64,000 nucleotides of DNA from Candidatus Vecturithrix granuli (GTDB lineage: Bacteria > Moduliflexota > Moduliflexia > Moduliflexales > Moduliflexaceae): positions 701,899-765,898 of the forward strand of contig DF820463.1 of the NCBI GenBank assembly GCA_000739535.1, read 5' to 3'. The notes beneath the pieces were generated by a model. That model searched no databases, was not told the origin of the DNA, and saw only the letters and a list, made by a program, of their open reading frames with translations. Below, piece after piece: positions 855 to 14,941 of this stretch (the stretch's first letter is position 1; the number at the start of each line of letters is the position of its first letter). Both the position numbers and the translations under genes were made by a program.

Positions 855-2081
855 TCAATCAAACACCAACTTCAGCCGTTTCATGCGTTCTTTCATCTCC
901 TCGATAATAATCTGTTCTTGCGCAACGGTCTCAGCTTCAAACGTTACCGAGAAACGAATATACCGTCCGGTGTCATCCCAGGGTACCGTCGAAATCACAG
1001 CTTCTTTCAGCAAAAATTCCGAAAAATCAGACGCGGTCTGAAAACGCACGCCAGTTTCCGTGCCTTGTGGACACTTTACATAACAATAAAAAGAAGCTTT
1101 TGGCTTTCTGGCTGAAAAGCCAAGATCATTCAAGGCACGGGTGAGCAGGTCGAAGCGCCGTGAATATTTCTCACAAATCCCATTTGTAATCTGAGGATGC
1201 TGGAGGGCAAAAATCGCGGCTTTCTGGATCGCACGAAATTGACCGGAATCGGTATTGTCTTTCACCACGCCATAAGCTTTCACGATCTTTGCATTGCCGG
1301 CCAGAAAGGCCAGACGCCAGCCGGTCATGTTGAAGGCTTTGGATAACGAGTGGATTTCGACCCCCACCTCTTTTGCCCCTTCAACCGTGAGAAAACTGAG
1401 CGGTTGATACCCATCGTATGTGAGCGCGCTGTATGCGGCGTCTTGAATGATGATTACATTGTGTTGCAGGGCAAATTCAATCAGGTCTTGAAAAAATGCT
1501 TTTGTGGCGACCTGCCCGGTCGGGTTATTCGGATAATTCACATACATCAGTTTTGCGCGTTTCAGAACCTCCTGAGGAATGGCGGTTAAGTCAGGCAGAA
1601 AATTGTTTTCTTCTCGCAACGGAAGCGGATACACCTCTCCCCCTAAATATTTGGTATAAGTGCCGATAACAGGATACCCGGGAATGGTCGTCAGGGTAAT
1701 GTCGCCGGGATTAATCAGACATAAGGGCAGCAACGCGAGAATGGGCTTTGATCCGATGCCGTGCAGCAGATGTTCAGCAGGATTCAGTCCATCAACCTGA
1801 TACACTTGTTTTAGATACTGAGCGGCCGCCTCTAAAAACTCAGGAATACCATTGTCAGCGTACCATCGGTTTTCAGGTTTGCCAGCTTCCTGCGCCAACA
1901 CCTGAACGATCTCCGGATCCGCGGGACAATCCGGTTCGCCCACGCCCATATCAATCAAGGGAATATGCGGATATTTTTTTCTGGCTTCTGCTTTGGCACG
2001 TTTGATTTTCTCAAATTTATAAATTTCTGTTGATTTCCCAAACTGTGCTCCCCCTATTCTTTCTGCAACGATGATATCCAT
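855..2081 (-). CDS. dapL: LL-diaminopimelate aminotransferase
   Basis: A 408-residue fold-type-I PLP aminotransferase. It converts tetrahydrodipicolinate plus glutamate to LL-diaminopimelate and 2-oxoglutarate in one step of lysine and peptidoglycan-precursor synthesis, in the cytoplasm. Visible landmarks are GVGEPDCPADPEIV near the N-terminus, the cofactor-binding stretch YVNYPNNPTGQ, and the Schiff-base lysine motif SLSKAFNMTGWRL. Length is normal for the family. The start is preceded by GGGAGAG. It is transcribed away from the Nif3-led block at 2450, sharing an AT-rich intergenic region. Because that block contains a DapF-like protein, a role in a diaminopimelate-related catabolic route is possible, but biosynthesis is the default reading. 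Confidence 0.88.
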   Translation of the reverse strand: MDIIVAERIGGAQFGKSTEIYKFEKIKRAKAEARKKYPHIPLIDMGVGEPDCPADPEIVQVLAQEAGKPENRWYADNGIPEFLEAAAQYLKQVYQVDGLNPAEHLLHGIGSKPILALLPLCLINPGDITLTTIPGYPVIGTYTKYLGGEVYPLPLREENNFLPDLTAIPQEVLKRAKLMYVNYPNNPTGQVATKAFFQDLIEFALQHNVIIIQDAAYSALTYDGYQPLSFLTVEGAKEVGVEIHSLSKAFNMTGWRLAFLAGNAKIVKAYGVVKDNTDSGQFRAIQKAAIFALQHPQITNGICEKYSRRFDLLTRALNDLGFSARKPKASFYCYVKCPQGTETGVRFQTASDFSEFLLKEAVISTVPWDDTGRYIRFSVTFEAETVAQEQIIIEEMKERMKRLKLVFD

Positions 2082-2399: not shown

Positions 2400-2449
2400 T
2401 TATGTCAACGTGCATTCCCGAAAAAATGGTTGATAAAAGGAGGCGATTG

Positions 2450-3463
2450 ATGAAAGAAAAAATTTTCGTCAGAGATTTAGTAGAGGTTTTGGATAGTATT
2501 ACGGGAGGAAGGGTACTGAAGTCTCCTCAAGATTTCGCAAGCGGAAAAAATCCGTTTGTTGTTACCAAATCCTCGAACATTCCTGGCAAGGCGGTCACTG
2601 AGACGCCGGGACTTGTGTGCGGAAGTCTGGATCAGGAGATCAAAAAAATTGCGGTCTTGATGACGCTGACCGAAAGCGGAATCGAACTGGCCGGAGCAAC
2701 CGGAGTAGATGCCCTGGTTGCACACCATCCGATTGCCGACGCCGCAAACGCAGGCGGCGTCCTGCTAAGGACCTATCTGGGATTGTACAATGTGGCTGCG
2801 CTGGAACTTCACGAAGCCTTTCATGGCTTGCACCCCGGTATTGCCTACCTTCACGGACATAAAGCGTATCATGTTGACATCAGGTACGGCGGAATTCCGG
2901 GGAATATCCTGTATGTTGGCGATGCGCTGCCGGAAGTCAAGACCGTCGGCGACATGTTGTTTCGATTGGATACGCTTATGGGGACTGAGGTGGAAGAAAA
3001 AGTGCTCCAGAGTGAACGGCAAATTCGGGGGTGTCAGGAAATTCAGGAAACAAGCGTAAGCGCAAGAGGCAGCATCCTTGTTGGCAGCCCTGAAAAACCT
3101 GTGACCAAAGTGATTCATATCTTCCCGCACACCGGTTTTACGCCTGAACACCTGGAAAGGGTCGTGAGTGAACATCCAGGAGCAGACACAATGCTGGCAA
3201 CTATCAGCAGAGTGTATCCCGGGAACCCATTGATCGAAAAAGCTCGCGAACTTGGTCTGAACTTTGTCTGTGGGAACTCGCATGCCCTGGAGATCATAGA
3301 AAACGGCCTGCCTCTGGCCAGGGCGATCAAAATGCACCTGCCGGACGTGGACGTGGTCATTTTCCGGGAAAGACTGACCAGCATCCCGCTGGACAAATTC
3401 GGCGCAAAAGATGTGCAGGAATACGCTAGTTACATTGCTCAAAACTTTTTGATGAAAAAATAA
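2450..3463 (+). CDS. Nif3-like (NGG1-interacting factor 3 family) protein
   Basis: A 337-residue protein from the ATG at 2450, chosen because AAAGGAGG lies just upstream; an in-frame ATG at 2402 has no such site. The central segment DALVAHHPIADAANAGG matches the metal-binding HHP motif of the Nif3/YbgI family. A second conserved area near the C-terminus, around NFVCGNSHALEIIENGLP, resembles the GH...E region that completes the dinuclear metal site. Nif3 proteins form hexameric toroids with a di-metal centre, and their biochemical role is poorly defined. It is the first gene of a block of catabolic genes and sits 26 bases before a Gate-domain membrane protein. Function in this locus is unknown; a hydrolase role is speculation. 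Confidence 0.7.
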   Translation: MKEKIFVRDLVEVLDSITGGRVLKSPQDFASGKNPFVVTKSSNIPGKAVTETPGLVCGSLDQEIKKIAVLMTLTESGIELAGATGVDALVAHHPIADAANAGGVLLRTYLGLYNVAALELHEAFHGLHPGIAYLHGHKAYHVDIRYGGIPGNILYVGDALPEVKTVGDMLFRLDTLMGTEVEEKVLQSERQIRGCQEIQETSVSARGSILVGSPEKPVTKVIHIFPHTGFTPEHLERVVSEHPGADTMLATISRVYPGNPLIEKARELGLNFVCGNSHALEIIENGLPLARAIKMHLPDVDVVIFRERLTSIPLDKFGAKDVQEYASYIAQNFLMKK

Positions 3464-3489
3464 ACGTATAAAGAAAGGAGAATCACACA

Positions 3490-4572
3490 ATGAGTCTTGA
3501 AACCAAAACTGAAGCCAGAGAAAAAAAGATGAAGACGATCGAAATCGTCGGTCTGGTTCTTGTCCTTCTATCCCTATTAGGGCTTATTTTTTACCCCGGG
3601 TTTATCGCTGGCATTTTTGACGCCATGGTGAAAAAAGCCCTTCCCATTATTGTCAACGTGACCCTGACAGGTACTCTCGCAACTGCTGTGATTATCAGCG
3701 TCATGATCGGTCGTATTCTGGAACGCTGCGGATTTACTGATGCGCTTATGCGCATTTTCATTCCGCTCGCCAGAGTGATCAAAGTGAATTCCGCCGTTCT
3801 CATCCCGGCCATTTATAACATTTTAGGCGATATCAACGCGGCAGGCAGGATAGGCGGCCCCATCCTGGTGAAAGCTGGGACCACAAAGGATGAGCAAAAA
3901 ATTGCCATCTGTACGATGGTTCAATCCCAGCAGTCCTTTTCGACCTTTATGTTTGGTCTGATGGCTCTAACTGCGGTCGGTGCCAGGGCGTTCCTTGTGA
4001 TTGTGATTGCAGTGTTCGCACCATTAGTTGTGGTGCCGTGGATCATGAGGCTGACCATTTGGCGCGACACCAGGGCTGTATCGCTCGAAGAAATGCCGAG
4101 TTTTACGCCGACCACCGCGCCGCTGGCGACGGTTTTCGGAGCAGCCAGAGAAGGCGCGGAACTGGTGTTCCTGCTCATTATCCCCGCGTTTGCTGTGGTC
4201 TTCTCGATTATCGGCGGTCTTGAATATATTGGCGTCTGGAAACCGATAGAAAGCGGCTTGACGGCTCTGCTCTCAGCCCTGGCGATTGATCCCACGACGG
4301 GGATGGTGAGTATCCTGGCCTCGCCCACGCTCGCCATGTCTCAGTTGAAGGACGTCGCCGCTGGTATGTCGCCAAAGCTTGTCATCGGCTCTTTTGTTCT
4401 GGCAGCCTCAGGTTTCCCATTATCGGTGATTTTCGGACAAATCCCGGTCATCTGGTCCGGCGCGACAGACCTGAATCACCGCGAAGCTATGGGCGCCGCG
4501 GTGATCGGGGCTGTGATGAGGTTGATCACCGCCGGAGTGGTGGCACTGTTACTTACGCCTCTACTGGCGTAA
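3490..4572 (+). CDS. Gate-domain (nucleoside-recognition family) membrane protein
   Basis: A 360-residue polytopic membrane protein with roughly 8-10 hydrophobic segments. Two similar internal halves, one with NVTLTGTLATAVIISVMIGRIL and one around LVFLLIIPAFAVVFSIIGG, suggest the duplicated Gate (nucleoside-recognition) fold. A strong GAAAGGAGA site precedes the ATG. It lies directly behind the Nif3-like gene and ahead of the FAD oxidoreductase. Such proteins are found with transport and sporulation functions and often lack a known substrate. Here it probably handles the substrate or a product of the locus, by context only. Confidence 0.6.
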   Translation: MSLETKTEAREKKMKTIEIVGLVLVLLSLLGLIFYPGFIAGIFDAMVKKALPIIVNVTLTGTLATAVIISVMIGRILERCGFTDALMRIFIPLARVIKVNSAVLIPAIYNILGDINAAGRIGGPILVKAGTTKDEQKIAICTMVQSQQSFSTFMFGLMALTAVGARAFLVIVIAVFAPLVVVPWIMRLTIWRDTRAVSLEEMPSFTPTTAPLATVFGAAREGAELVFLLIIPAFAVVFSIIGGLEYIGVWKPIESGLTALLSALAIDPTTGMVSILASPTLAMSQLKDVAAGMSPKLVIGSFVLAASGFPLSVIFGQIPVIWSGATDLNHREAMGAAVIGAVMRLITAGVVALLLTPLLA

Positions 4573-4627
4573 ATGTCGGCGAGAACGACATGGTTAGTAA
4601 CGCTATTTCCTAAGCGGACCGGTCACA

Positions 4628-4658
4628 ACAACCAGCTTTCTTGAAAAAACCTGGTTGT
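4628..4658. repeat. palindromic repeat, family B copy 1
   Basis: A hairpin with arms ACAACCAG and CTGGTTGT and inner TTTCTT/AAAAAA pairing, between the Gate protein and FAD oxidoreductase genes. It has the same core form (CCxGxTTTCTT/AAGAAACCxGG) as copies at 8506, 9009, 35598, 47572 and 54238. It may act as a weak processing or termination site. Confidence 0.5.
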
Positions 4659-4712
4659 TAGCCGTGTCAATCTTTATGACGAATGCTGCACTATAAAAAG
4701 GAGGAGCATAAA

Positions 4713-5987
4713 ATGGCAAAAGTTGTTATTGTTGGGGGTGGCTGGGCAGGATGTGCATCTGCTGTAGCCGCAGCCAAAAAGCAGGTAGAAGTTGTGGTAT
4801 TAGAGCGAACGGACATGCTCCTGGGAACCGGATTGGTCGGCGGTATTATGCGTAATAATGGACGTTTTACCGCTACCGAAGAAGCTATTGCCCTGGGGTG
4901 CGGCGATCTGTTCCAACTGACAGACCAGGAAGCCCGGCACAAAAACATCGAATTTCCTGGCCATAAACACGCCTCACTTTATGATGTCGCTACCATGGAG
5001 CCTACCGTGAAAAAATACCTCCAGGATCAAGGAGTAGAAATCCATTTTCAAGCCCGGGTCGCCGAGGTTGAAATGGAAGGCAAAACCATCAAAAAGGTGA
5101 TGACTGCCAAAGGTGATGCCTTTAACGGCGATGCCTTTATTGACACCACGGGTACTGCGGGTCCCATGAATAATTGTACGCGTCATGGCAATGGGTGCGC
5201 GTGCTGTATCTTGCGCTGTCCCAGCTTTGGCGGACGGGTGAGTTTGACAGCCGAAGCGGGCGTGGAAGAAATTATTGGCGTCAAAAAAGACGGATCCGTC
5301 GGAGCGATGAGCGGTTCCTGTAAACTGTTCAAAGAATCCCTGGATTCTGCGATTGTGGAGGAATTGAATCGCACTGGCGTTGCAATCATTCCCATTCCTC
5401 CTGATCTGATGGCGAGTGAGGAAAAATTAACAATGAAAGCCTGCCAGCAATATGCGTTAAAAGAATTTGCTGAAAATATCATCCTTTTAGATACTGGACA
5501 CGCCAAGCTGATGACCCCCTATTTCCCTCTGGAACTCCTGCGCAAGATACCCGGGATGGGAAATGCACGCTATGAAGATCCTTACGCTGGCGGCCTGGGA
5601 AATTCCATGCGCTATATGGGCATGGCTCCGCGCAATGATGCGCTTCAGGTCGAGGGGGTTAATAACCTCTTCTGCGCCGGAGAAAAAGCCGGCCTTCTGG
5701 TCGGACATACCGAAGCCATCGTCACAGGCAGCCTCGCCGGATATAATGCCGCTTGCCAGGCCAGGAGCGAAGAACTCCTCATTCTTCCGGATGCTCTTGT
5801 GATCGGCGATGCCATCGCCTTTGTTCGCACCGAGATGCAGACGGAGGAAGGGAAAACCAAAAAATATACATTCTCCGGATCGGTGCTCTTTGAAAGAATG
5901 AAACAGAAAGGGTATTACAGTACAAACCTGGATGAAATCAGAGGTCGGGTTGCAAATGCAGGTTTAATGAACGTGATGCTTGGATAA
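4713..5987 (+). CDS. FAD-dependent oxidoreductase with a Cys-rich motif
   Basis: A 424-residue flavoprotein from the ATG at 4713, which follows AAAGGAGGAG (an in-frame ATG at 4683 lacks a site). The N-terminus VVIVGGGWAGCASAVAAA is a Rossmann dinucleotide-binding motif followed by VVVLER for ribose binding. A second FAD contact region is near NLFCAGEKAGLLVGHTEA. Residues 155-169 contain five cysteines in the pattern C-x6-C-x-CC-x3-C within NGCACCILRCPSFGG, which could bind a metal or Fe-S cluster or form redox disulfides. It probably oxidises an amino acid or intermediate of the locus; substrate unknown. It lies between two membrane-protein genes of the same block. Confidence 0.72.
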   Translation: MAKVVIVGGGWAGCASAVAAAKKQVEVVVLERTDMLLGTGLVGGIMRNNGRFTATEEAIALGCGDLFQLTDQEARHKNIEFPGHKHASLYDVATMEPTVKKYLQDQGVEIHFQARVAEVEMEGKTIKKVMTAKGDAFNGDAFIDTTGTAGPMNNCTRHGNGCACCILRCPSFGGRVSLTAEAGVEEIIGVKKDGSVGAMSGSCKLFKESLDSAIVEELNRTGVAIIPIPPDLMASEEKLTMKACQQYALKEFAENIILLDTGHAKLMTPYFPLELLRKIPGMGNARYEDPYAGGLGNSMRYMGMAPRNDALQVEGVNNLFCAGEKAGLLVGHTEAIVTGSLAGYNAACQARSEELLILPDALVIGDAIAFVRTEMQTEEGKTKKYTFSGSVLFERMKQKGYYSTNLDEIRGRVANAGLMNVMLG

Positions 5988-6028
5988 CTTAGAACGATCA
6001 CAGGTCTTCAAAAAGGAGGGATTGACTT

Positions 6029-7396
6029 ATGGTTCAAATCACTTTATCTCACTGGGTCTTTTTAATTGTCATGCTTGCGGTGATCGTCGCTATGATCATG
6101 CGCAGAGGAGTGGTTCTCATTGCCGTTATCGGCGTTTTTTTCGTGGCTCTGTCTTATCATAAAAACCTTGTTGCTACCATCCAATCAATGTTTAATGCGT
6201 TTATGGAGGCAGGTATAGATCTCTTTGACATCATGCTGGTCATTGCTTTAATGGTCGCTATGTTGAAAACCATGGAAAAGATGGGGGCCGACTATTTAAT
6301 GGTGGCGCCGATTAAAAAAGCACTCAACAAACCAACGGTTGCGTTCTTTACGCTGGGGATCATTATGTATTTAGCGGCTTTGTTCTTCTGGCCTACTCCG
6401 GCGACAGCCCTGGTAGGTACAATCCTGATTCCGGTCGCTGTGAAAGCCGGATTGCCTGCAATCGTAGCGGCAATGAGTGTGAATATTTTGGGACATGGCA
6501 TGGCTCTTTCCGGTGATTTGATTATTCAGGGCGCGCCAGCTATCACTTCGAGCAATGCAGAGGTTCCAATAGAAAGCGTTTTGATAAAAGGCGGCATTCT
6601 TTCGGTCACCGCCGGCCTTGTTGCCATTTTGGTCGCCTTCTTGATGGTGAGAAAGGAAATTGCAAAAGGAGGTTCCGGAGAAAGCGTTCTGGCAGAGGCT
6701 CAACCTCGAGAATCTTATACCCGTGGGGCGCGTTTCATGGCCATTGCTGTTCCCATAACCTATTTAGCCTTACTGATCTATATGATCATTTCTAAGACCC
6801 GAGGAGGAGCTGCTACTGCTCTCTTAGGAGGCACTGCTGCAATCTTTATCACCCTTGGTTCGATTCTGGCCTATGGGGATAAAGCTTTGGAATCCTCCGG
6901 AGATTTAATCCGCGATGGTTTAATGTTCGCAATTAAGATTTTTGCGGTCGTCATTCCGATCGCAGGCTTCTTCTTTACAGGTGCACCGAGTATGGCCCCT
7001 AAAATCTTAGGCGAGGGCGCGCCGGGTTTTCTGTTTGATTTGGGCAATGCCTTTGCCAATATTATGCCGCTTTCTAAAATTCCGGTTGCGATAGGCGTGA
7101 TGATTACCGGAATTATTACCGGCCTTGATGGCTCCGGTTTTTCCGGATTGCCCCTGGTCGGCTCTCTGGCCAATGCACTAGGGACTCCTCTGGGAATTGA
7201 TGTGGCAGCCCTGGCATCCTTAGGACAGGTCGGGGCAGTGTTCTCCGGCGGCGGCACGCTGACAGCCTGGGCTTTTGGTCTGGTCGCTGTGGCTGGCGTC
7301 TCAGGCGTATCGCCTCTGGAATTGGCCCGCAAAAATTTTATCCCGGTAGCCTGCGGTCTTGTCGCCGCAACTATTGTAGGAATTATGATGATGTAA
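6029..7396 (+). CDS. permease, GntP/citrate-transporter-like
   Basis: A 455-residue integral membrane protein with about 11-12 hydrophobic segments and two related halves typical of the ion-transporter superfamily (GntP, DcuC, CitMHS type). Signature-like stretches are FWPTPATALVGTILIPVAVK in the first half and GLDGSGFSGLPLVGSLANAL in the second. AAAAGGAGGG precedes the ATG. It is likely the importer of the organic or amino acid degraded by the surrounding genes. The exact family and substrate cannot be fixed by eye. Confidence 0.62.
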   Translation: MVQITLSHWVFLIVMLAVIVAMIMRRGVVLIAVIGVFFVALSYHKNLVATIQSMFNAFMEAGIDLFDIMLVIALMVAMLKTMEKMGADYLMVAPIKKALNKPTVAFFTLGIIMYLAALFFWPTPATALVGTILIPVAVKAGLPAIVAAMSVNILGHGMALSGDLIIQGAPAITSSNAEVPIESVLIKGGILSVTAGLVAILVAFLMVRKEIAKGGSGESVLAEAQPRESYTRGARFMAIAVPITYLALLIYMIISKTRGGAATALLGGTAAIFITLGSILAYGDKALESSGDLIRDGLMFAIKIFAVVIPIAGFFFTGAPSMAPKILGEGAPGFLFDLGNAFANIMPLSKIPVAIGVMITGIITGLDGSGFSGLPLVGSLANALGTPLGIDVAALASLGQVGAVFSGGGTLTAWAFGLVAVAGVSGVSPLELARKNFIPVACGLVAATIVGIMMM

Positions 7397-7448
7397 TCAG
7401 GAACAGGAGTGTAAAACAGCCTTTGCGGAAGTCGCAATGAAAATCAGA

Positions 7449-7625
7449 TGTAGCGCGAAACTCCAGTTTCGCGCATCGTTAACAGCCGCGAAACTGGAGT
7501 TTCGCGCAACATTTTCACAGGAGTCACCAATGTACCGCGAAGCTCCAGCTTCGGCGGCACGCACGCACGAGATGAAAATCAGGCGTATGCGCGAAACTGG
7601 AGTTTCGCGCTACATTTTCACAGGA
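7449..7625. repeat. cluster of four short palindromes with direct-repeat spacers
   Basis: The gap between the permease and DapF-like genes holds four copies of a self-complementary unit of the form GCGAAACTCCAGTTTCGC (about 7452-7475, 7482-7505, 7532-7556, 7590-7613). Two are followed by ACATTTTCACAGGAG, and ATGAAAATCAG is also repeated. The last copy supplies the ribosome binding site of the DapF-like gene. Related AT-richer palindromes lie at 19861-19945. An open frame across the cluster is just the repeat read through. Confidence 0.7.
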
Positions 7626-7633
7626 GAAACAAC

Positions 7634-8494
7634 ATGATGCGGTTTTGGAAATATCACGGATTAGGGAATGATTATCTGGTCATGCCCCCTGAAGACATCT
7701 CCAAAGAACTGACGCCAGCGCAAATTCGCTTAATCTGCCATCCACACTATGGCATTGGCTCCGATGGGTTGCTGATCGGCCCATTCGACGCTGAAGAACA
7801 AACCTTCAGACTCCGCTTATTTAATCCTGACGGCGGTGAATTTGAAAAAAGCGGCAACGGATTGCGCATTTTCGCCCGATACCTCTGGGATATGGGCTGG
7901 GTCCAGAACAAACCTTTTCATATTCTGACCCCCGGCGGGAAGGTCACTGCGCAGGTGTTTGAAGGCGGACGAAGGGTAACGGTCGAAATGGGGCAGGTGA
8001 GTTTTCACAGCAGCCGTATCCCGGTCGCCGGGCCGCCGCGTGAAGTGTTGCAAGAATCAATCGAGGTGCAGGGCCGGGAGTTTCGTTTTTGCGCAGCAAC
8101 CATCGGGAATCCGCACTGCGTCATCTTGTGCGACGATATTTCCCGCGAACTCGCGTGCAGCATAGGGCCGCACGTTGAAACGGATCCGCGCTTTCCCAAC
8201 CGCACCAACGTGCAATTTTTGAAAGTGCTCGACCGGGCAACCATTCAGATTGAAATCTGGGAACGCGGTGTGGGCTACACGCTTGCTTCGGGCAGCAGCA
8301 GCAGCGCCGCCGCTGCGGTCGCCCATAAATTAGGATTGTGCGATTCCCATATCACGGTCAGAATGCCCGGCGGCGAACTTGACATTCAGATTGATCCCGA
8401 TTATGCCATTACGATGACAGGCGCAGTCACGAAAATTTGCGAGGGACAATTTGATAACGAAGCCTTTGACGCCCTTAACGTAATTGACAATTGA
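7634..8494 (+). CDS. DapF-like epimerase homologue with both catalytic Cys replaced by Ser
   Basis: A 286-residue member of the diaminopimelate epimerase fold. The N-terminus WKYHGLGNDYLV and blocks IGSDGLL, FNPDGGEFEKSGNG, GNPHCV, NVQFL and ERGVGYTLASGSSSSAAA align by eye with DapF. In DapF the two catalytic cysteines lie in the CGNG and ACGTG motifs. Here both are serine (Ser73 and Ser219, counted from the first of two adjacent ATGs), so a normal two-base cysteine epimerisation is unlikely. AGGAGAAAC precedes the start. In related folds, loss of one cysteine accompanies dehydratase activity (trans-3-hydroxyproline dehydratase). Gene context with an aminomutase suggests action on an amino acid. 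It could also be an inactive or binding-only paralogue. Confidence 0.75.
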   Translation: MMRFWKYHGLGNDYLVMPPEDISKELTPAQIRLICHPHYGIGSDGLLIGPFDAEEQTFRLRLFNPDGGEFEKSGNGLRIFARYLWDMGWVQNKPFHILTPGGKVTAQVFEGGRRVTVEMGQVSFHSSRIPVAGPPREVLQESIEVQGREFRFCAATIGNPHCVILCDDISRELACSIGPHVETDPRFPNRTNVQFLKVLDRATIQIEIWERGVGYTLASGSSSSAAAAVAHKLGLCDSHITVRMPGGELDIQIDPDYAITMTGAVTKICEGQFDNEAFDALNVIDN

Positions 8495-8505
8495 GAGCAG
8501 CAAGA

Positions 8506-8536
8506 GAAACCGGGTTTTTTGAAAAAACCCGGTTTC
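8506..8536. repeat. palindromic repeat, family B copy 2
   Basis: A near-perfect hairpin with arms GAAACCGGGTTTTTT and AAAAAACCCGGTTTC in the 59-base gap between the DapF-like and unknown 143-residue genes. Confidence 0.6.
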
Positions 8537-8553
8537 TGAGAGAGGCACATACG

Positions 8554-8985
8554 ATGGATCCTTACGCCAATAAGATGTTTTCCAAAGATCCGTATTATAA
8601 GAAAATCGATCTGGTGAGCCATGTGGTCGCCATTCTGGACGCTACGGTTGAAAAACGCGGACTTGAAATTATCCAGCCTCCCACGCGAGTGGTGAACAAG
8701 GATGAGGTGCATGAATTGATCCTGACCGATCAGACGACGCTATCTGAAGATCGGCGCGTTGATCGTATCGCCTATCTGGCGTTCGTCTGTTTTGAAAACA
8801 GCGGCGTCCTTCAACGCGGGGATAAGTTGATATTCGGTGATGTGGAAATCGGAACAATTTTAGGATTCGATGAAGCGCATCTGCCGAATCATCAAAATAT
8901 CGTCCTGCACACCAATAACTTACAAACCGGGCGTGAATGGGGCCTGAACCTGCACGCCCAATTAGTGTTTCATAAACCTGAGTAA
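8554..8985 (+). CDS. unrecognised 143-residue protein of the catabolic block
   Basis: A soluble protein of 143 residues from the ATG at 8554, preceded by GAGAGAGG; longer readings run through the family B repeat. There is no signal peptide or membrane segment. Notable stretches are KRGLEIIQPPTRVV, a middle DRIAYLAFVCFENSGVL and a C-terminal FGDVEIGTILGFDEAHLPNHQNI. The last looks like a small beta-barrel. I do not recognise the family. The length is close to accessory subunits such as 2-amino-4-ketopentanoate thiolase alpha, but I see no clear match. It sits tightly in the operon between the DapF-like and PLP genes, so it is probably a subunit or an enzyme of the same pathway. Confidence 0.6.
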   Translation: MDPYANKMFSKDPYYKKIDLVSHVVAILDATVEKRGLEIIQPPTRVVNKDEVHELILTDQTTLSEDRRVDRIAYLAFVCFENSGVLQRGDKLIFGDVEIGTILGFDEAHLPNHQNIVLHTNNLQTGREWGLNLHAQLVFHKPE

Positions 8986-9008
8986 GCGGCCATAAATTTT
9001 CAAAGCGA

Positions 9009-9040
9009 AGAACCGGGTTTCTTCGAAGAAACTCGGTTCT
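9009..9040. repeat. palindromic repeat, family B copy 3
   Basis: A hairpin, AGAACCGGGTTTCTT against AAGAAACTCGGTTCT, between the 143-residue protein and the PLP enzyme. One mismatch in the arms. Confidence 0.6.
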
Positions 9041-9094
9041 TGAGGACGTGAAAATTTTTGAGTCCGCACTTATGTCACCACAAGGAGTTATACG

Positions 9095-10558
9095 ATGAAA
9101 AATTATAAATTCAAATACGAAATGTACAAAGCGTTGCAGTTAGCTATTCCCGAAATCTACAAAGAAGCTGCGGAAGCCGCCGATGAAATCGGCATTCCGA
9201 AAGAGGAACGCGGGAAATTCGGGTTGACCGGGGCCATTTCCGGTTGTCATGGCATTCCCCACAAAGAAGTGCGCGAAGCCTTAGAAAAGACCTCGACCCA
9301 GATTATTCCTAACAGCGTGCTGGATGAAGAACTGCGGTACGTGGTCAAGTCCTATTATGGCGATGAATACGATGCGCTCGCGGTCAATACCTGTGAAGCC
9401 GCGCTGTGGGTCTCGTTTGATACCTTAGCCACTCCGCCGATGTGCGGCAGAGGCGACAACTATCGCGCCCGCTACATTATTCCTTATGAAAAACATCTGC
9501 ACCATCACGGCGGCTACGGCAGACCCTTTCCCGGACGCTATAAAGACATCTTTGCCGACCGAGGCAATACCGCCGGCGAATTGGGATTCTACGGCAAGCG
9601 CCAGAACAACCTTGATATGATTATCGCCAAACTGGTCGGCGCCGATTATTCCTGCCATGGGATCAAATATCATCCGGCCGTGCAATTGACCGGCGTGGAT
9701 GCCGAAGCTTCAGCGAAACGTATTCGGAAAATTGCGAAACAGCATGCGACCTTACTCACGGCGATTGCGTCGCTCGGTTACGATACTCCCGGTTACGGGT
9801 ACAAGGAAAAAGCGGCTGACGGCGCGCCGTTGCTGCAAAAACTGTTGGGCGATGTGGCCGCAGATTTCAATGTGCCCTATATTGTGGATAACGCCTGGGG
9901 CGTGCCGTTTATCGGCACGGATATTCGCAAAACCGGCGCGGATGTGATCCTGTACAGCATGGATAAAGCCGCCGGGAGCGTCACCGCCGGACTCATCATC
10001 GGCAAAGAGGAAGCTCTGGTGCAGTTACGGCGGGCTTTAGGCACCCACGGCGACCGTTGGGGCACCGGCACGTCGCACGGTAAAGCTGCGTATGTGACCA
10101 TTGATCCAGGTAAAGAAGGACTGGTCGGAGTCATTGCCGCGCTCAAAGTCTTGCTTGAACACCCGGAACGTGTGACAAAACCGATTGACGAACTGTATCA
10201 GATTGTGGTAGAAGAATTTGGAAAGATCGATCCTAAAATTCGAAAAGATTTCAGCTTTGCCAAATCCTATAACTCCGGCGCAGTAGAAATCAACTATGAA
10301 GCGAGCTGGCAAGAAGGCGGCAATTGCATTCCGATTTTCTCCATCGAGGATATGTACTCCGGCACCAATATTTTCCAGACCGGGACAAGCAAAATGGGAA
10401 TTATCCCCACGATCGCGTATGACGGGAACATCTTCATCTCCCCAGGCTTAGGCACAACAGATTTGGATGGCAACCTGATCGAAGAAAAAATGCGCTGGGC
10501 TGTGAAAGGTATGGTGAAATTAATCGAGATCGTTTGCCGCAAAATTGGCATTATCTAA
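9095..10558 (+). CDS. fold-type-I PLP-dependent enzyme, SelA/lyase-like
   Basis: A 487-residue cytoplasmic enzyme. The central part has the order seen in fold-type-I PLP proteins: a Gly-rich cofactor region (LTGAISGCHGIPH), an Asp contacting the pyridine ring in IVDNAWGVPF, and a probable Schiff-base lysine in YSMDKAAGSVTAGLIIG. The SxDK-x-xG arrangement resembles SelA and D-glucosaminate-6-phosphate ammonia-lyase type proteins. A HLHHHGGYGRPFPGRY stretch is distinctive and may bind substrate or metal. AAGGAG precedes the start. It lies immediately upstream of the aminomutase genes, so an amino-acid lyase or aminotransferase role is plausible. The exact reaction cannot be told. Confidence 0.68.
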   Translation: MKNYKFKYEMYKALQLAIPEIYKEAAEAADEIGIPKEERGKFGLTGAISGCHGIPHKEVREALEKTSTQIIPNSVLDEELRYVVKSYYGDEYDALAVNTCEAALWVSFDTLATPPMCGRGDNYRARYIIPYEKHLHHHGGYGRPFPGRYKDIFADRGNTAGELGFYGKRQNNLDMIIAKLVGADYSCHGIKYHPAVQLTGVDAEASAKRIRKIAKQHATLLTAIASLGYDTPGYGYKEKAADGAPLLQKLLGDVAADFNVPYIVDNAWGVPFIGTDIRKTGADVILYSMDKAAGSVTAGLIIGKEEALVQLRRALGTHGDRWGTGTSHGKAAYVTIDPGKEGLVGVIAALKVLLEHPERVTKPIDELYQIVVEEFGKIDPKIRKDFSFAKSYNSGAVEINYEASWQEGGNCIPIFSIEDMYSGTNIFQTGTSKMGIIPTIAYDGNIFISPGLGTTDLDGNLIEEKMRWAVKGMVKLIEIVCRKIGII

Positions 10559-10565
10559 TCTTTAA

Positions 10566-10629
10566 AACTACAGGAATGGCATATAAGCAGGAATTTCTAC
10601 ATTCTTGCTTATATGCCATTCCTGTAGTT
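10566..10629. repeat. long near-perfect inverted repeat before the mutase genes
   Basis: Two 29-base arms (10566-10594 and 10601-10629) are complementary at 28 positions, with the remaining pair a possible G-U, separated by 6 bases. The structure starts 7 bases after the PLP gene stop and ends 8 bases before the ATG of the small mutase gene. In mRNA it would be a very stable stem. There is no T-run on either side, so simple intrinsic termination is unlikely. mRNA processing or control of translation of the next gene is possible. Confidence 0.85.
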
Positions 10630-10637
10630 CCCCAAGC

Positions 10638-10904
10638 ATGCCGGAAGAACCCAAACTGGCTGAGATTGACCCTTTTGCCCGCATTGTTGATGTCATGGAT
10701 ATCGAAACCTTTTTTGCGTGTTCTAGCCAGGAAGAAGGAGAACAAGTAGCTGCCGCCCTGATGCACAAATTGGGCCTGACAAATTACGATATTGTGTCAT
10801 TCGTTTTCCACAAAATGGGAGCGCGCGTCCGAATTCGCGCCACCTTCAATCGTCCGGGCGAACACTACCCCTGGCTGGGGAGTGAATTGACAATGGAGAA
10901 TTGA
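10638..10904 (+). CDS. small subunit resembling the KamE dimerisation domain
   Basis: A protein of 88 residues from the ATG at 10638; no good ribosome binding site is visible because the inverted repeat abuts the start. The pattern (a beta strand, EEGEQVAAALMHKLGL, then two strands VSFVFHKMG and VRIRATFN) resembles the N-terminal dimerisation domain of the lysine 5,6-aminomutase beta subunit, which there is fused to the B12 domain. Here it stands alone and the B12 domain is on the next gene. It ends 5 bases before the large subunit. The assignment rests on general pattern and context, so confidence is moderate. Confidence 0.5.
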   Translation: MPEEPKLAEIDPFARIVDVMDIETFFACSSQEEGEQVAAALMHKLGLTNYDIVSFVFHKMGARVRIRATFNRPGEHYPWLGSELTMEN

Positions 10905-10909
10905 GAATT

Positions 10910-12748
10910 ATGGAACAAAACTCGACAAAACGCATTCTCTTAGTTCCGCTCGATCCCGTACACGATGTCGCTGTAAAAATTATCAACCGAAAGCTGCGGC
11001 AGCGCAATTTTAACACCTTACTGCTCGAACCGGATTTGCCGATAGAAGAAATTTGTGCAACAGCCGTAAAATATCAGCCTGATTTTCTGTTGGTGAGCCG
11101 TACCATCGGCTATGGCGTGGGAGAATTATTGAGCAAATTTATTGATCAGCTTGAACTGGCAGGCATCCGCCGACGCGCCAAAATCATCCTCGGCGGAAAA
11201 GCCATCAAACCCGAATTGGCAGCGGAACTCGGTTTTGATGCCGGTTTTGGCAGCAATACCGATTACAATGAAGTGGTGGCCTTTATTGAAGGCCATGAAT
11301 TTGTGCGCCCTAATCCGGCTTTGCGCGTCAAAAAAGACATTACGCACGGTTACACCTACAATGTTCATCACACGCTGATTCGCGAATATCTCGAAACCAT
11401 CACAGATCAAATTTTGCAATGGGCGTCCGACTATACATCGCCAGGCGTGGAACGCGCTAATCTTGTGCAGGCCTATTTGCAAAAGTATCGCGACTGTCTT
11501 GAAGATGTTCGCTTAGAAGGCGAAACCTTACGACAATATCTGGAGTTCAGCGATGATGTGATCCAGGCGTACTATCAATCCGGCGCCATCCCCAAAACCG
11601 TTAAAAAAATTGACAAACAAGTGATTCGAGAATTCATCGCCTTACATAAGCGCATGAATGCGGCGATCGATTATTCCTATCGCTCCATGCAGTTCCAGCG
11701 CGAAAAACCCCTGGTGTTCGTTCAATACGGCACCGGCTGCCCGTTGATGGATATTGAGCATATTAAGGCGTGTGAAAACTGGGGGGCCGATGGGATTTTT
11801 CACTTTGATCCTGCCTGGGGGGCGCGTACCGAAGGGTTTATGTCGGGCTATTTAGGGCATGAAGCGGATGGCACGATTCTGACCAAAGAAAATCTGGCCA
11901 GTATCAAAAATGTGATCAACGACTCCACCATCTGGTCGGTGCGTGCACATCGCGGTTTAAACACGCCGGAAACGGTGGTGCTTGCCGGCGAGTTAGGGGC
12001 CGATTTAACCAAAATCAATATTGTCTATGGTTCGTTAAACGGCGGTACGGATCCGGCGCGGCTCACGGTGGACGGAGTCAAAAGCATCAAACTCGCGGCT
12101 GAGTATGGTTTGCCTTTTGATGTCGTTACCAATGAAGAACTTGGCGGCGTTCCGGCGTTTAAGGCTTTTGCCGGCATGTTGATTGTCAGCTATCTGGCCT
12201 TGAAGTGCGGCGCGCGGCCGATTTTGAAGCCGCTGTTCTGCTATTCCCCGGATGTGATGATTCAGGGTTACATGGAAACCAATTACCTCGATTATAATGC
12301 GGCCAAAATCCTGGCCCTGCGCAGCATCATTGACGCGCCGATCTGGCCCGGAGAACCGATTGGTTTTATGACTCATTCCGAAGAACGGGTGCAATCAGCC
12401 ATGGCCACCGCCCTGCACGCGCTGCTCAGTATCAGCCTTGATGTAGATGCGATCACGATCGCTTCAACTGATGAAGCCTATTCGCGCGGTCCCATTTCAG
12501 CCCATGCGCGTCTCGACACCTTAAACGCGGTCAGAGAAGTTTTTCGCTTCTGGGGCAGCAGCAAAATCCAAATCAATGCCGCTATCCTGAGCATGAAAGA
12601 CCAACTGTGCGACGGCATCGAACAGACTTTAAAAGTGGTCTGCGAACATGGCGATTTTGTCTCAGCCCTGAATACCGGATTGTTAGGCACCAGGCAGGAT
12701 GGCGCAAACCCGGGACGAGCCGGGCGCAACACCTTGATCAAACGATGA
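10910..12748 (+). CDS. B12-dependent aminomutase/mutase-like protein, N-terminal B12 domain plus TIM barrel
   Basis: A 612-residue protein from the ATG at 10910. Residues 1-130 form a Rossmann-like cobalamin-binding domain: RILLVPLDPVHDVAVKII carries a His18 in the place of the cobalt-ligating histidine (canonical DxHxxG, here DPVHDVA), followed by FLLVSRTIGYG and IILGGKAIK. Lys28, ten residues after the histidine, is near the place of the PLP lysine of lysine 5,6-aminomutase. From about residue 250 a TIM-barrel follows, with YGTGCPLMDIEH, WGARTEGFMSGYL and the late DEAYSRGPISAHARLDT. WGARTEGF resembles a motif of the KamD alpha subunit, and glutamate mutase MutE is the other relative to consider. 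It overlaps the next gene by ATGA. Substrate unknown. Confidence 0.68.
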   Translation: MEQNSTKRILLVPLDPVHDVAVKIINRKLRQRNFNTLLLEPDLPIEEICATAVKYQPDFLLVSRTIGYGVGELLSKFIDQLELAGIRRRAKIILGGKAIKPELAAELGFDAGFGSNTDYNEVVAFIEGHEFVRPNPALRVKKDITHGYTYNVHHTLIREYLETITDQILQWASDYTSPGVERANLVQAYLQKYRDCLEDVRLEGETLRQYLEFSDDVIQAYYQSGAIPKTVKKIDKQVIREFIALHKRMNAAIDYSYRSMQFQREKPLVFVQYGTGCPLMDIEHIKACENWGADGIFHFDPAWGARTEGFMSGYLGHEADGTILTKENLASIKNVINDSTIWSVRAHRGLNTPETVVLAGELGADLTKINIVYGSLNGGTDPARLTVDGVKSIKLAAEYGLPFDVVTNEELGGVPAFKAFAGMLIVSYLALKCGARPILKPLFCYSPDVMIQGYMETNYLDYNAAKILALRSIIDAPIWPGEPIGFMTHSEERVQSAMATALHALLSISLDVDAITIASTDEAYSRGPISAHARLDTLNAVREVFRFWGSSKIQINAAILSMKDQLCDGIEQTLKVVCEHGDFVSALNTGLLGTRQDGANPGRAGRNTLIKR

Positions 12749-13749
12749 AGACCATCGGAATTGTCGGTATTGCCAAAAACACGGGCAAAACCACGACAAC
12801 GAACGCACTGATCGAGTATCTTTATCAACAGGATGCCAAAATCTGCGTCACTAGCATTGGCTACGACGGTGAAGAAATTGATAATATCACCGCTCTGCCC
12901 AAACCCCGCATCAGTTTGAATCCGGGGACATTGGTGGTGACAGCTTCAGACTGCGTCGCACCTCAGGCTGAAAGCTATCGAATTTTGAGGCAGACGGATA
13001 TTCACACGGTTCTGGGCAATATTCAGATCTGCCAGACGGAAAAACCGGTGAACGCCATTGTCGCAGGGCCCAAAACCGGCGATGATCTGCAACGGGTAAT
13101 GGGGATGCTTCAGGATTTTGCCTGTGACGTCCTGCTGGTAGATGGCGCGTTGAATCGCGTGGCCCCGTTTGCCAAGGTTGAGAACCTGGTAATCGCGGTT
13201 GGGCCGGCCGCCAATCATGATCTTGACGAACTTGCCAGGGAAATCAAACTGATTGTTGATTTGACCAGGCTGACGGTTTGGCAATGTAAGGGCGATCCCT
13301 TCCCTTTTTCGGGGAAAAGCGCGGCCGGCTCGCAGGGCGTGGACGTTGATCCGCAAAATAACGCTGTTTGGGTGCATGGCCCGGTGTATGCGACCACGCT
13401 CCAGAAGAAGATCGCGGAGTTCCGCCAGAGCACGCCTGTTTCTGCGCTGATCATCGCATCGGCTCTACATCTGTTAAGCGGCAGTGAATACCGCGAAATC
13501 CAGCGGTTTATGCAACATCTTCGCCAGGCCAGCATTGATCTGTTTGTGCAAAAACAGATTCGGCTTTTAGGACTCACGATCAACCCGGCCTATCCGGCTC
13601 CCGTGAAAAAAGGGCTGAACATATACCAATTACGCTATGTGGACGAGCAGATCTTCAAAGAAAAATTGCAAGCATTACTCGATCATGAAAGTTTGATGAT
13701 CAACGTCAAAAATGAGAGCGCGGAACCTCTGCTTGAACGGGCCGTGTAA
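12745..13749 (+). CDS. P-loop protein, probable mutase reactivase (KamB-like)
   Basis: A 334-residue cytoplasmic protein starting at 12745 in an ATGA overlap with the mutase stop, implying translational coupling. The Walker A motif is VGIAKNTGKTTTTNALIEYL at the N-terminus. Other landmarks are SIGYDGEEID, the KPRISLNPGTLVVTA stretch and CDVLLVDGALNR as a likely Walker B region. From memory this pattern (AKNxGKT, then DGE, then KPxI...GTL.TA) matches the lysine 5,6-aminomutase reactivase KamB. Such chaperones exchange damaged cobalamin using ATP. The coupling to a B12 mutase supports the role. It is the last gene of the block. Confidence 0.65.
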   Translation: MKTIGIVGIAKNTGKTTTTNALIEYLYQQDAKICVTSIGYDGEEIDNITALPKPRISLNPGTLVVTASDCVAPQAESYRILRQTDIHTVLGNIQICQTEKPVNAIVAGPKTGDDLQRVMGMLQDFACDVLLVDGALNRVAPFAKVENLVIAVGPAANHDLDELAREIKLIVDLTRLTVWQCKGDPFPFSGKSAAGSQGVDVDPQNNAVWVHGPVYATTLQKKIAEFRQSTPVSALIIASALHLLSGSEYREIQRFMQHLRQASIDLFVQKQIRLLGLTINPAYPAPVKKGLNIYQLRYVDEQIFKEKLQALLDHESLMINVKNESAEPLLERAV

Positions 13750-13759
13750 AAAAGGTAGG

Positions 13760-13905
13760 TAATGGTTACATGTAATGACACAGAAGGTTATGGACACGCT
13801 CTCCGGAGTGCGCAAGCTCTGCTTGCGCGGCCAAAGCAGAGCTTTGGCACTCCGAAAAATGTCCATAACCTTTTCTGTCAATACAGTTACATGGTAAGCG
13901 ACGCT
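13760..13905. repeat. nested palindrome: family A unit inside outer inverted repeats
   Basis: The 296-base gap holds a nested structure. Outer arms read GGTTACATG...CATGGTAA, middle arms AAGGTTATGGACA and TGTCCATAACCTT, and the core (13804-13854) is a family A palindrome, CGGAGTGCGCAAGCTCTG against CAGAGCTTTGGCACTCCG. No gene is visible. The middle arm also occurs at 22994-23096 around a different core. Confidence 0.7.
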
Positions 13906-14045
13906 CGTTTGTTGGGCGCGAGGAACGCGCCCGCGTGACCCCAAAACACACACCCGATCGCAGCGCCGTTCGCTCTACGACCGGGTGATCACGTCACGCA
14001 AGAGGCAGCACAGGCGTTTGATGTTACAGCGGTTGGTCACGCCGT

Positions 14046-14594
14046 TTACTCCGGCAGTCTGATGGTATCAAGAATAGCGAGTTGTTCGTCTCTATACTGG
14101 TCCGAACTGGCTTCCTCACAAACAGTGTACACAAGCACCGTCGTCACATCGTTGGGAAAGTAGATCGAAACGATCAGCTCAACGGGCTTACCAGTCTCCT
14201 TGTCTGTGCCTGTCGCATTCTGCTTCCAAAACTCGATGTCGTTGGATGTGCCTTCTTCAGGTTCGTCTAGATATTCCAAATCGCTAAACGCATTTTCCAG
14301 CGGCATATCCACAATCGCATCCCATGCCTCTGGCGTTAGGTTCTCAACTTTTTTCGCTGGAAGGGTCAGGAGGACAATCCCTGCCTCTGCTTTCTTCCCA
14401 ACTATCGTTGTTACCCCTCCATCCGTGCTGGTTTCGACTGTCCAGTCATTGGGAAAGTCAACCAAAAATTGCGGGTTATTCTGGTCCGGATAAACATACG
14501 TCGTCACATCCTGCGCCAACGCAGCACCGGCGATCAACACCAGCCCCAACGCGGCGATGAACACGCTACTCATACAATGTTTCTTTTGTACCAT
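14046..14594 (-). CDS. secreted protein of unknown function
   Basis: A 182-residue protein with a clear signal peptide (basic MVQKKH, hydrophobic FIAALGLVLIAGAALA, cleavage after ALAQ), so the mature form of about 154 residues is periplasmic or secreted. AGGAGAAAATTTT precedes the ATG. The mature part has the alternating pattern of a PsbP-like or DUF1795-type fold (VDFPNDWTVETS..., FWKQNATGTDKETGKPVELIVSIYF). No catalytic motif is seen. It is alone, between a repeat region and the divergently transcribed kinase gene. Confidence 0.65.
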   Translation of the reverse strand: MVQKKHCMSSVFIAALGLVLIAGAALAQDVTTYVYPDQNNPQFLVDFPNDWTVETSTDGGVTTIVGKKAEAGIVLLTLPAKKVENLTPEAWDAIVDMPLENAFSDLEYLDEPEEGTSNDIEFWKQNATGTDKETGKPVELIVSIYFPNDVTTVLVYTVCEEASSDQYRDEQLAILDTIRLPE

Positions 14595-14772
14595 AAAATT
14601 TTCTCCTGTTGTGATGTTTGCTGTCGCAGCCTCTTCTGTGATCTTCGTGTAATCTTATAAGTCCACCGCCGTTTTTTGTCAACGTCGATCTTCGCAAAAA
14701 TCACATCAGACGGCAGGTGGTTCAAAAACTTGCAATGAAAAAGAGGAAAAGCAGTATTTCTTGAAAGATTCT

Positions 14773-14802
14773 TTGACAAAAACTTGTGCTTTTGGCTAAC
14801 AT
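14773..14802 (+). promoter_or_regulatory. candidate promoter of the sensor kinase
   Basis: TTGACA (14773-14778), an 18-base spacer and TAACAT (14797-14802) lie about 140 bases upstream of the kinase start. The gap 14595-14941 shows no gene. Confidence 0.35.
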
Positions 14803-14941
14803 TCTTGCTAATCTCTTTATACAGACGAGCATGAATTGCAGAGGAGTGCAGTGTTGTCGTTGCACTTGCGTAAAGACCATGTTGCGCTCCTGGTGATGAG
14901 AAATTCATGACAGGAATGTTGTTCGTCAAGGAGGTCATAAG

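Follow-up and report, generated by a model that had tools for sequence, protein, structure and literature searches.

A DapF-like gene with two active-site serines

The window (the whole stretch of DNA that we analyzed, 64,000 nucleotides) contains a gene for a DapF-like protein of 286 amino acids at positions 7634..8494 of the forward strand. The protein scores 228.6 bits against TIGR00652, the equivalog model for DapF, whose cut-off is 114.65, and it matches PF01678 with E = 3.5e-56; an AlphaFold model and a phylogenetic tree place it in the same family. DapF is a textbook two-cysteine, cofactor-independent epimerase. In the phmmer alignments listed, however, the catalytic cysteines of the solved DapF chains lie opposite Ser73 and Ser219 of the window's protein. 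The codons for Lys72 and Ser73 (AGC, within EKSGNG) are at 7847..7852, and those for Ser219 (TCG, within LASGSSSS), Gly220, Ser221, and Ser222, which cover the second catalytic position and the start of a helix, are at 8288..8299, both on the forward strand. So the serines that a preliminary description had reported in KSGNG and ASGSS are confirmed by both the codons and the alignments. Because canonical DapF is defined by a pair of cysteines (Cys73 and Cys217 in Haemophilus influenzae) and this protein has Ser73 and Ser219 instead, we consider it to be a Ser/Ser variant and not a canonical DapF.

The rest of the protein looks like DapF, as the preliminary description had supposed. The AlphaFold model has the two-domain DapF fold (pLDDT 92.6, pTM 0.88), and its best match in the PDB by Foldseek is DapF from Pseudomonas aeruginosa (8qzy, TM 0.88). 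The laboratory mutants C73S and C217S (2q9h and 2q9j) are also among the Foldseek matches, and no natural Ser/Ser DapF was seen among the solved structures in the five alignments listed (17 sequences matched). When we mapped the ligand positions for diaminopimelate (DAP) from the portion of PMC12039745 that we drew on, Asn12, Asn64, Asn159, Asn192, Glu210, and Arg211 were all present, as was the active-site His161. Thus the protein resembles canonical DapF (TIGR00652/PF01678; structures 8qzy, 9mro, and 1gqz) in its fold, in scoring at twice the cut-off, in all of the DAP-binding side chains along with His161 and Glu210, and, for some of its Ser/Ser relatives, in having dap or ddl genes as neighbors. 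The Ser/Ser clade described below differs from canonical DapF in that both cysteines are replaced by serine, Lys72 replaces methionine, Gln194 replaces glutamate, and Ser221-Ser222 replaces Thr-Gly.

The gene is not in any dap operon. Another DAP gene in the window is 5.5 kb away and on the reverse strand: an LL-diaminopimelate aminotransferase, DapL (855..2081; NF004937, 665.8 bits against a cut-off of 585), which is a possible supplier or consumer of LL-DAP. In the gap upstream of the Ser/Ser gene (7448-7626), a 37-nt repeat that contains a palindrome and has the core GCGCGAAACTGGAGTTTCGCGC occurs three times, and a perfect 16-nt hairpin, which could be a terminator or a repeat element, lies directly 3' of the stop codon (8505..8537, forward strand; inverted repeat I6).

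The Ser/Ser gene is flanked by a permease-like gene on one side and by genes of a B12-aminomutase cluster on the other, the latter on the forward strand. The next gene downstream encodes a DUF6917 protein (8554..8985; PF21891, 152.6 bits). It is followed by a PLP protein with a distant likeness to SelA/DgaE (9095..10558; TIGR01437, E = 3e-7, below the model's cut-off), by an OraE/KamE-like protein of the B12-binding aminomutase type (10901..12748; NF052385, E = 1.4e-13, also below the cut-off, with a B12-binding domain), and by a KamB-like reactivase (12607..13749; NF052386, 183.6 bits against a cut-off of 210). The true start of the KamB-like gene is probably further in, since the match begins at residue 50. 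The stretch from 2402 to 13749 of the window and positions 8378-17095 of another locus, L040, both contain DUF34/NIF3-like, permease-like, FAD, DUF6917, SelA/DgaE-like PLP, OraE/KamE-like B12, and KamB-like genes. Clusters of this type are rare and are candidates for a pathway of diamino-acid fermentation, perhaps of DAP. In L040, a sodium:dicarboxylate symporter is present as two open reading frames (12152-13406), whose matches to the same Pfam family lie next to each other; this could be a frameshift or a real split.

A clade of Ser/Ser proteins

An 11-row alignment of DapF matched 337 of 385 spread genomes. Among 132 distinct proteins from these genomes, chosen from loci in a way that favors better-scoring matches, 108 were Cys/Cys, 16 were Ser/Ser, 7 were Cys/Ser, and 1 was Ser/Cys. 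We then scanned named genomes with an alignment of 14 Ser/Ser proteins, using two patterns that span neither of the catalytic positions. This confirmed at least 583 stretches, of which we kept the best 80; their residues were checked on all six frames, and their neighbors by tblastn. All of these best 80 loci have serine at both catalytic positions, as established by script for 78 and by eye for the other 2, so the pair of serines is neither a sequencing slip nor a matter of chance. Going by the titles of the records, the best 80 of at least 583 are mostly from Verrucomicrobiota, and many are metagenome-assembled genomes. The other titles include Westiellopsis and Aphanothece (Cyanobacteria), Desulfobacteraceae, Planctomycetes, Chloroflexi/Anaerolineae, Armatimonadota, and SAR324. 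We considered whether the serines might provide an oxidation-proof enzyme for aerobes, and this distribution gives the idea no support, as Desulfobacteraceae and Anaerolineae are among the titles in the clade. Both of these groups are largely anaerobic.

Altogether we collected 217 distinct DapF-like proteins: 96 Ser/Ser, 113 Cys/Cys, 7 Cys/Ser, and 1 Ser/Cys. (These are ranked relatives that are enriched for kin of the Ser/Ser proteins, so the numbers are not a census.) For a tree of 94 rows, we sampled 39 of the 96 Ser/Ser and 47 of the 113 Cys/Cys proteins and took all of the Cys/Ser and Ser/Cys proteins. A single group with SH-aLRT support of 99 holds 37 of the 39 Ser/Ser rows, and these 37 rows regroup, again at 99, if 21 motif columns are removed and nine long rows are left out (L003, L031, L033, L163, L028, L181, L161, L168, and L174); the other three of the 12 rows that were flagged as long (L178, L180, and L019) were kept. 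Both trees are of the "quick" type, with SH-aLRT as their only measure of support. The preliminary description had suggested aligning these proteins to see whether the Ser/Ser type forms a clade, and it does. Judging from these alignments and trees, the window's gene belongs to a large and overlooked bacterial branch of DapF that has serine in place of each catalytic cysteine. Within the open-licence literature in PMC, we found no report of a natural Ser/Ser DapF.

The two Ser/Ser proteins outside the main clade are L178 (from genome G299) and L180 (from G101). Both have Thr-Gly after the second Ser-Gly, and neither genome has a match to LysA at E ≤ 1e-20. There are also seven Cys/Ser proteins that keep Cys73 and have serine at the second position (L008, L010, L081, L093, L108, L119, and L174), and these require three changes on the 94-row tree. 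Given these changes and the placement of L178 and L180, the replacement of cysteine by serine in DapF probably happened more than once. The Cys/Ser and Ser/Cys homologs (7 and 1 of the 217) are like the Ser/Ser proteins in that a catalytic cysteine has become serine, but they lie elsewhere in the tree, and the Cys/Ser proteins keep one cysteine, Gly222, and Glu194. In all seven of the Cys/Ser genomes, the Cys/Ser copy is the only match to DapF.

Within the 217 proteins, the Ser/Ser active site is nearly invariant. Ser73 and Ser219 are found in 96 of 96 Ser/Ser proteins, as compared to Cys73 and Cys219 in 113 of 113 Cys/Cys proteins, and the DAP ligands Asn12, Asn64, Asn159, Asn192, Glu210, and Arg211 are kept in all 96 (His161 in 95). 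Four other positions change along with the catalytic pair: Lys72 in 93 of 96 (Met72 in 92 of 113 Cys/Cys proteins), Gln194 in 94 of 96 (Glu194 in 87 of 113), Ser221 in 94 of 96 (threonine in 98 of 113), and Ser222 in 94 of 96 (Gly222 in all 113). These additional clade-specific changes were not part of the preliminary description. For four gene pairs, dN/dS was 0.15, 0.16, 0.07, and 0.21; the first of these is the window's gene with its relative from genome G001 and is near saturation (dS of 2.1). On the evidence of these alignments and rates, the Ser/Ser active site is rebuilt rather than decayed and is under purifying selection across the clade. The preliminary description had inferred altered chemistry or a binding role, and the active site is indeed altered: the clade has conserved residues of its own, and neither its conserved core nor its dN/dS (0.07-0.21) is that of a dead copy. 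We also asked if another cysteine might have taken over. Cys35 is found in 96 of 96 Ser/Ser proteins and Cys162 in 94 of 96, yet they are also common in Cys/Cys proteins (73 and 56 of 113, respectively), so there is no case for a takeover of the catalytic role.

The genomic setting

We searched 39 whole genomes: 30 from the Ser/Ser clade, 2 with other Ser/Ser proteins, and 7 with Cys/Ser proteins. In 25 of the 30 clade genomes, the Ser/Ser copy is the sole match to DapF. The other five (G000, which is the genome of the window, and G386, G387, G396, and G398) have a Cys/Cys homolog as well, and in G396 it is this homolog, not the Ser/Ser copy, that adjoins lysA. As for DAP dehydrogenase (Ddh), an alternative source of meso-DAP, we rejected it, as there was no match at E ≤ 1e-5 in any of the 39 genomes, including the 30 from the clade.

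Among the 25 sole-copy genomes, 24 have a LysA at E ≤ 1e-20, and in 19 it exceeds the curated cut-off; there is no match to LysA in G378, and the one in G397 is weak and partial. For MurE, 20 of the 25 genomes exceed the cut-off, and in 19 of these the protein has the motif DNPR, the mark of a DAP-type MurE. Fifteen of the 25, among them Verrucomicrobia bacterium IMCC26134 (L225/G385), whose genome is complete, combine LysA over the cut-off and a DNPR-type MurE with no Ddh and only a Ser/Ser DapF. DapL-like matches at E ≤ 1e-40 are present in 19 of the 30 clade genomes, although this is a looser measure because other aminotransferases may match.

Unlike the window's gene, some of its relatives are near dapA, dapB, lysA, or ddl. 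In G001, which is from the same family as the window's genome, the Ser/Ser gene is 63% identical to the window's, encodes the only PF01678 protein, and adjoins lysA (288.8 bits, which just misses the 297.9 cut-off); dapB and dapA lie further on. In loci L193, L199, and L212, the Ser/Ser gene is followed by dapA and dapB, both over their cut-offs, and in L182, a dapA that has an in-frame stop is beside the Ser/Ser gene, and dapB is present too. (This dapA, at 2450-3400 of L182, is on a contig from a metagenome-assembled genome; the stop is either an assembly error or a sign of a broken gene.) Among the best 80 of at least 583 loci, which extend over 3.2-16.9 kb each, dapA and dapB lie within the flanks in just 4. 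A gene for D-Ala-D-Ala ligase (ddl) adjoins the Ser/Ser gene in G350 and G079.

The window's own genome is 8.38 Mb, with 93.8% completeness and 10.75% contamination. Its LysA is on contig C18. Its second DapF homolog, on contig C5, is Cys/Cys, but it has glutamate where the window's protein has Asn64 and Asn159, and it is on a very long branch, features that make it an improbable housekeeping DapF. The preliminary description had proposed that a true Cys/Cys DapF elsewhere in the genome, together with random core changes in relatives of the window's gene, would mark a dead paralog. This is not what we found: the Cys/Cys homolog has glutamate at two DAP-binding positions, and the relatives of the window's gene keep their core. 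In two other genomes from the same order, G002 and G003, DapF is Cys/Cys. There is no match to MurE at E ≤ 1e-30 in either G000 or G001, although MurE is over the cut-off in 20 of the remaining 24 Ser/Ser genomes that we searched. So in the window's family DAP may be used for lysine only, or else MurE may have diverged or be absent from the assemblies.

The link to aminomutase genes that was suspected for the Ser/Ser clade does not hold up. An OraE-like protein is present in just 5 of the 385 genomes, and of these, only the window's has a Ser/Ser DapF; three have a Cys/Cys DapF, and in G082 none was found. Similarly, among the 14 genomes of the 385-genome survey in which we read a member of the Ser/Ser clade, OraE was found only in G000. 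None of the window's OraE, PLP, DUF6917, or KamB proteins has a match in the 80 Ser/Ser loci (again the best 80 of at least 583, at 3.2-16.9 kb each). We therefore reject aminomutase linkage as a property of the clade; it looks to be local to the window's genome. A single-protein scan of genome contigs with the OraE-like protein found no relative.

Related clusters are found without a Ser/Ser DapF. Relative to the window, the cluster in G195 has an FAD protein (58%), a permease (41%), an OraE-like protein (57%), and a KamB-like protein, and it adds a Cys/Cys DapF and a DAP dehydrogenase (289.6 bits). The Cys/Cys DapF is in a slot that is comparable to that of the window's Ser/Ser DapF and is next to the DAP enzyme, which hints that both clusters handle DAP. 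In G131 and G268, two genes come after those for DUF6917 and PLP: one that by eye resembles RidA, and an OraE-like gene (L041, 3421-8191, and L043, 6586-11051); a RidA would fit with an enamine or imine intermediate.

Function, mechanism, and implications

Our preferred explanation, to which we assign a probability of about two in three, is that the proteins of the Ser/Ser clade are functional DAP epimerases, variants of DapF that use a pair of serines. It builds on what the sequences show: one conserved clade, a DAP pocket that is kept, purifying selection, a Ser/Ser gene as the sole DapF match in most member genomes, and dap or ddl genes near several relatives. In this proposal, Ser73 (with Lys72 and His161) and Ser219 (with Glu210 and Ser222) would form the acid/base pair. 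Lys72 is just before Ser73, and Ser222, which occurs together with Ser219 in the clade, is three places past it, so these changes might tune both hydroxyls for proton transfer. The clade would then supply meso-DAP, and the window's copy would keep its epimerase activity and serve the synthesis of lysine or else provide the B12-aminomutase cluster with stereoisomers of DAP. A broader claim is that this is a thiol-free and cofactor-free epimerase, in which two serine hydroxyls at the N-termini of helices, tuned by Lys72/His161 and Glu210/Ser222, act as base and acid on an unactivated alpha C-H, and also that many Verrucomicrobiota, along with scattered lineages of other phyla, rely on it alone for the meso-DAP that goes into lysine and peptidoglycan. 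As read from conserved residues and gene content, we lean only slightly towards this claim as a whole.

Known systems give arguments in both directions. Two enzymes that passages in PMC4113996 describe are precedents for a natural serine at a catalytic position, both of them in the proline racemase superfamily: a 4-hydroxyproline epimerase of the Ser/Cys type and a 3-hydroxyproline dehydratase of the Ser/Thr type. The serine of the dehydratase is held in place by a residue three positions further along, comparable to Ser219 and Ser222. On the other hand, the Ser/Cys epimerase has a single serine in its pair, and the solved hydroxyproline enzymes act on other substrates and are just 13-16% identical to the window's protein. 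Also, the turnover of the C67S and C209S mutants of HisR is described as "greatly reduced" in an excerpt of PMC11602996, and C83A and C221A of CgDapF are almost inactive according to part of PMC5296763; both argue against catalysis by serine. Several genomic findings also count against our preferred explanation: the Cys/Cys homologs in 5 of the 30 clade genomes, the presence of dapA and dapB at just 4 of the best 80 loci, the contamination of G000, the lack of a MurE match in G000 and G001, the missing or weak LysA in G378 and G397, and the position of the window's copy outside a dap operon. DapF from Chlamydia, a DAP epimerase and glutamate racemase, shares the DapF fold, but as described in sections of PMC5885031, it keeps both cysteines and requires them for its racemase activity. 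The same sections propose a dual function for DapF from the PVC group, which includes the Verrucomicrobiota, and their discussion of DapF in this superphylum does not mention Ser/Ser members.

The loss of both textbook catalytic residues could instead mean that the Ser/Ser proteins are not epimerases: with DAP or a similar amino acid as their ligand, they might have a structural or regulatory part or catalyze something else, and meso-DAP would come from an unrecognized enzyme. DapF from E. coli is reported to have a second role as a partner of RppH, and a Cys/Cys homolog is also present in 5 of the 30 clade genomes. But then one unknown epimerase would have to be present in many phyla, given that 25 of the 30 genomes have no other DapF and none has Ddh; moreover, 15 of those 25 have both LysA over the cut-off and a DNPR-type MurE, and some relatives are in operons with dapA and dapB. 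We think this explanation is unlikely. It seems more doubtful still that, in a clade that otherwise makes DAP, the window's copy epimerizes another diamino acid for fermentation, such as lysine, ornithine, or the substrate of the aminomutase. Its position between the permease-like gene and the DUF6917, PLP, and OraE-like genes fits with this, as does the Cys/Cys DapF with DAP dehydrogenase in the equivalent cluster of G195. Yet that DAP enzyme points to DAP itself, and the window's protein keeps the residues for the distal carboxylate of DAP, which lysine and ornithine lack.

An eliminating enzyme such as a dehydratase is suggested by the Ser/Thr member of the proline racemase superfamily, which is a 3-hydroxyproline dehydratase (PMC4113996, in the passages cited above). 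However, DAP has no beta leaving group, the pocket is of the DAP type, and the same passages describe the Ser/Cys epimerase. The preliminary description had assumed that homologs with one changed cysteine are dehydratases, and this natural epimerase makes that rule too simple. Trans-3-hydroxyproline dehydratases are recognized by a Cys/Thr or Ser/Thr pair and a proline-type pocket; here we find a Ser/Ser pair and a DAP pocket, so we consider a dehydratase to be very improbable. Finally, the loss of both thiols and the Cys/Cys homolog elsewhere in G000 might be taken to indicate a dead paralog. We give this next to no credence and reject it on the strictly conserved core and the dN/dS of 0.07-0.21; furthermore, the Ser/Ser gene is the sole copy in 25 of 30 genomes, and the Cys/Cys homolog in G000 has glutamate in place of Asn64 and Asn159.

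We return to the serine-pair epimerase and what it would mean. Because the curated model for DapF scores the window's protein at twice its cut-off despite the missing cysteines, the Ser/Ser trait would not be visible in automatic annotation. Inhibitors that capture cysteine, such as aziDAP, which binds the cysteines of DapF covalently (PMC12039745, in part), should not act that way on a Ser/Ser enzyme, and neither should the redox switch by a disulfide between the cysteines that has been proposed for DapF (in part of PMC5296763). The catalytic thiolate is described as abstracting a proton with a pKa of about 29 (abstract of PMC12039745). If the Ser/Ser enzyme works, then the two-thiol mechanism would not be universal in the DapF family. 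And because there is a large natural clade with two serines, whose members are the sole DapF in most of the genomes that we examined, whether a thiol is needed at all becomes directly testable.
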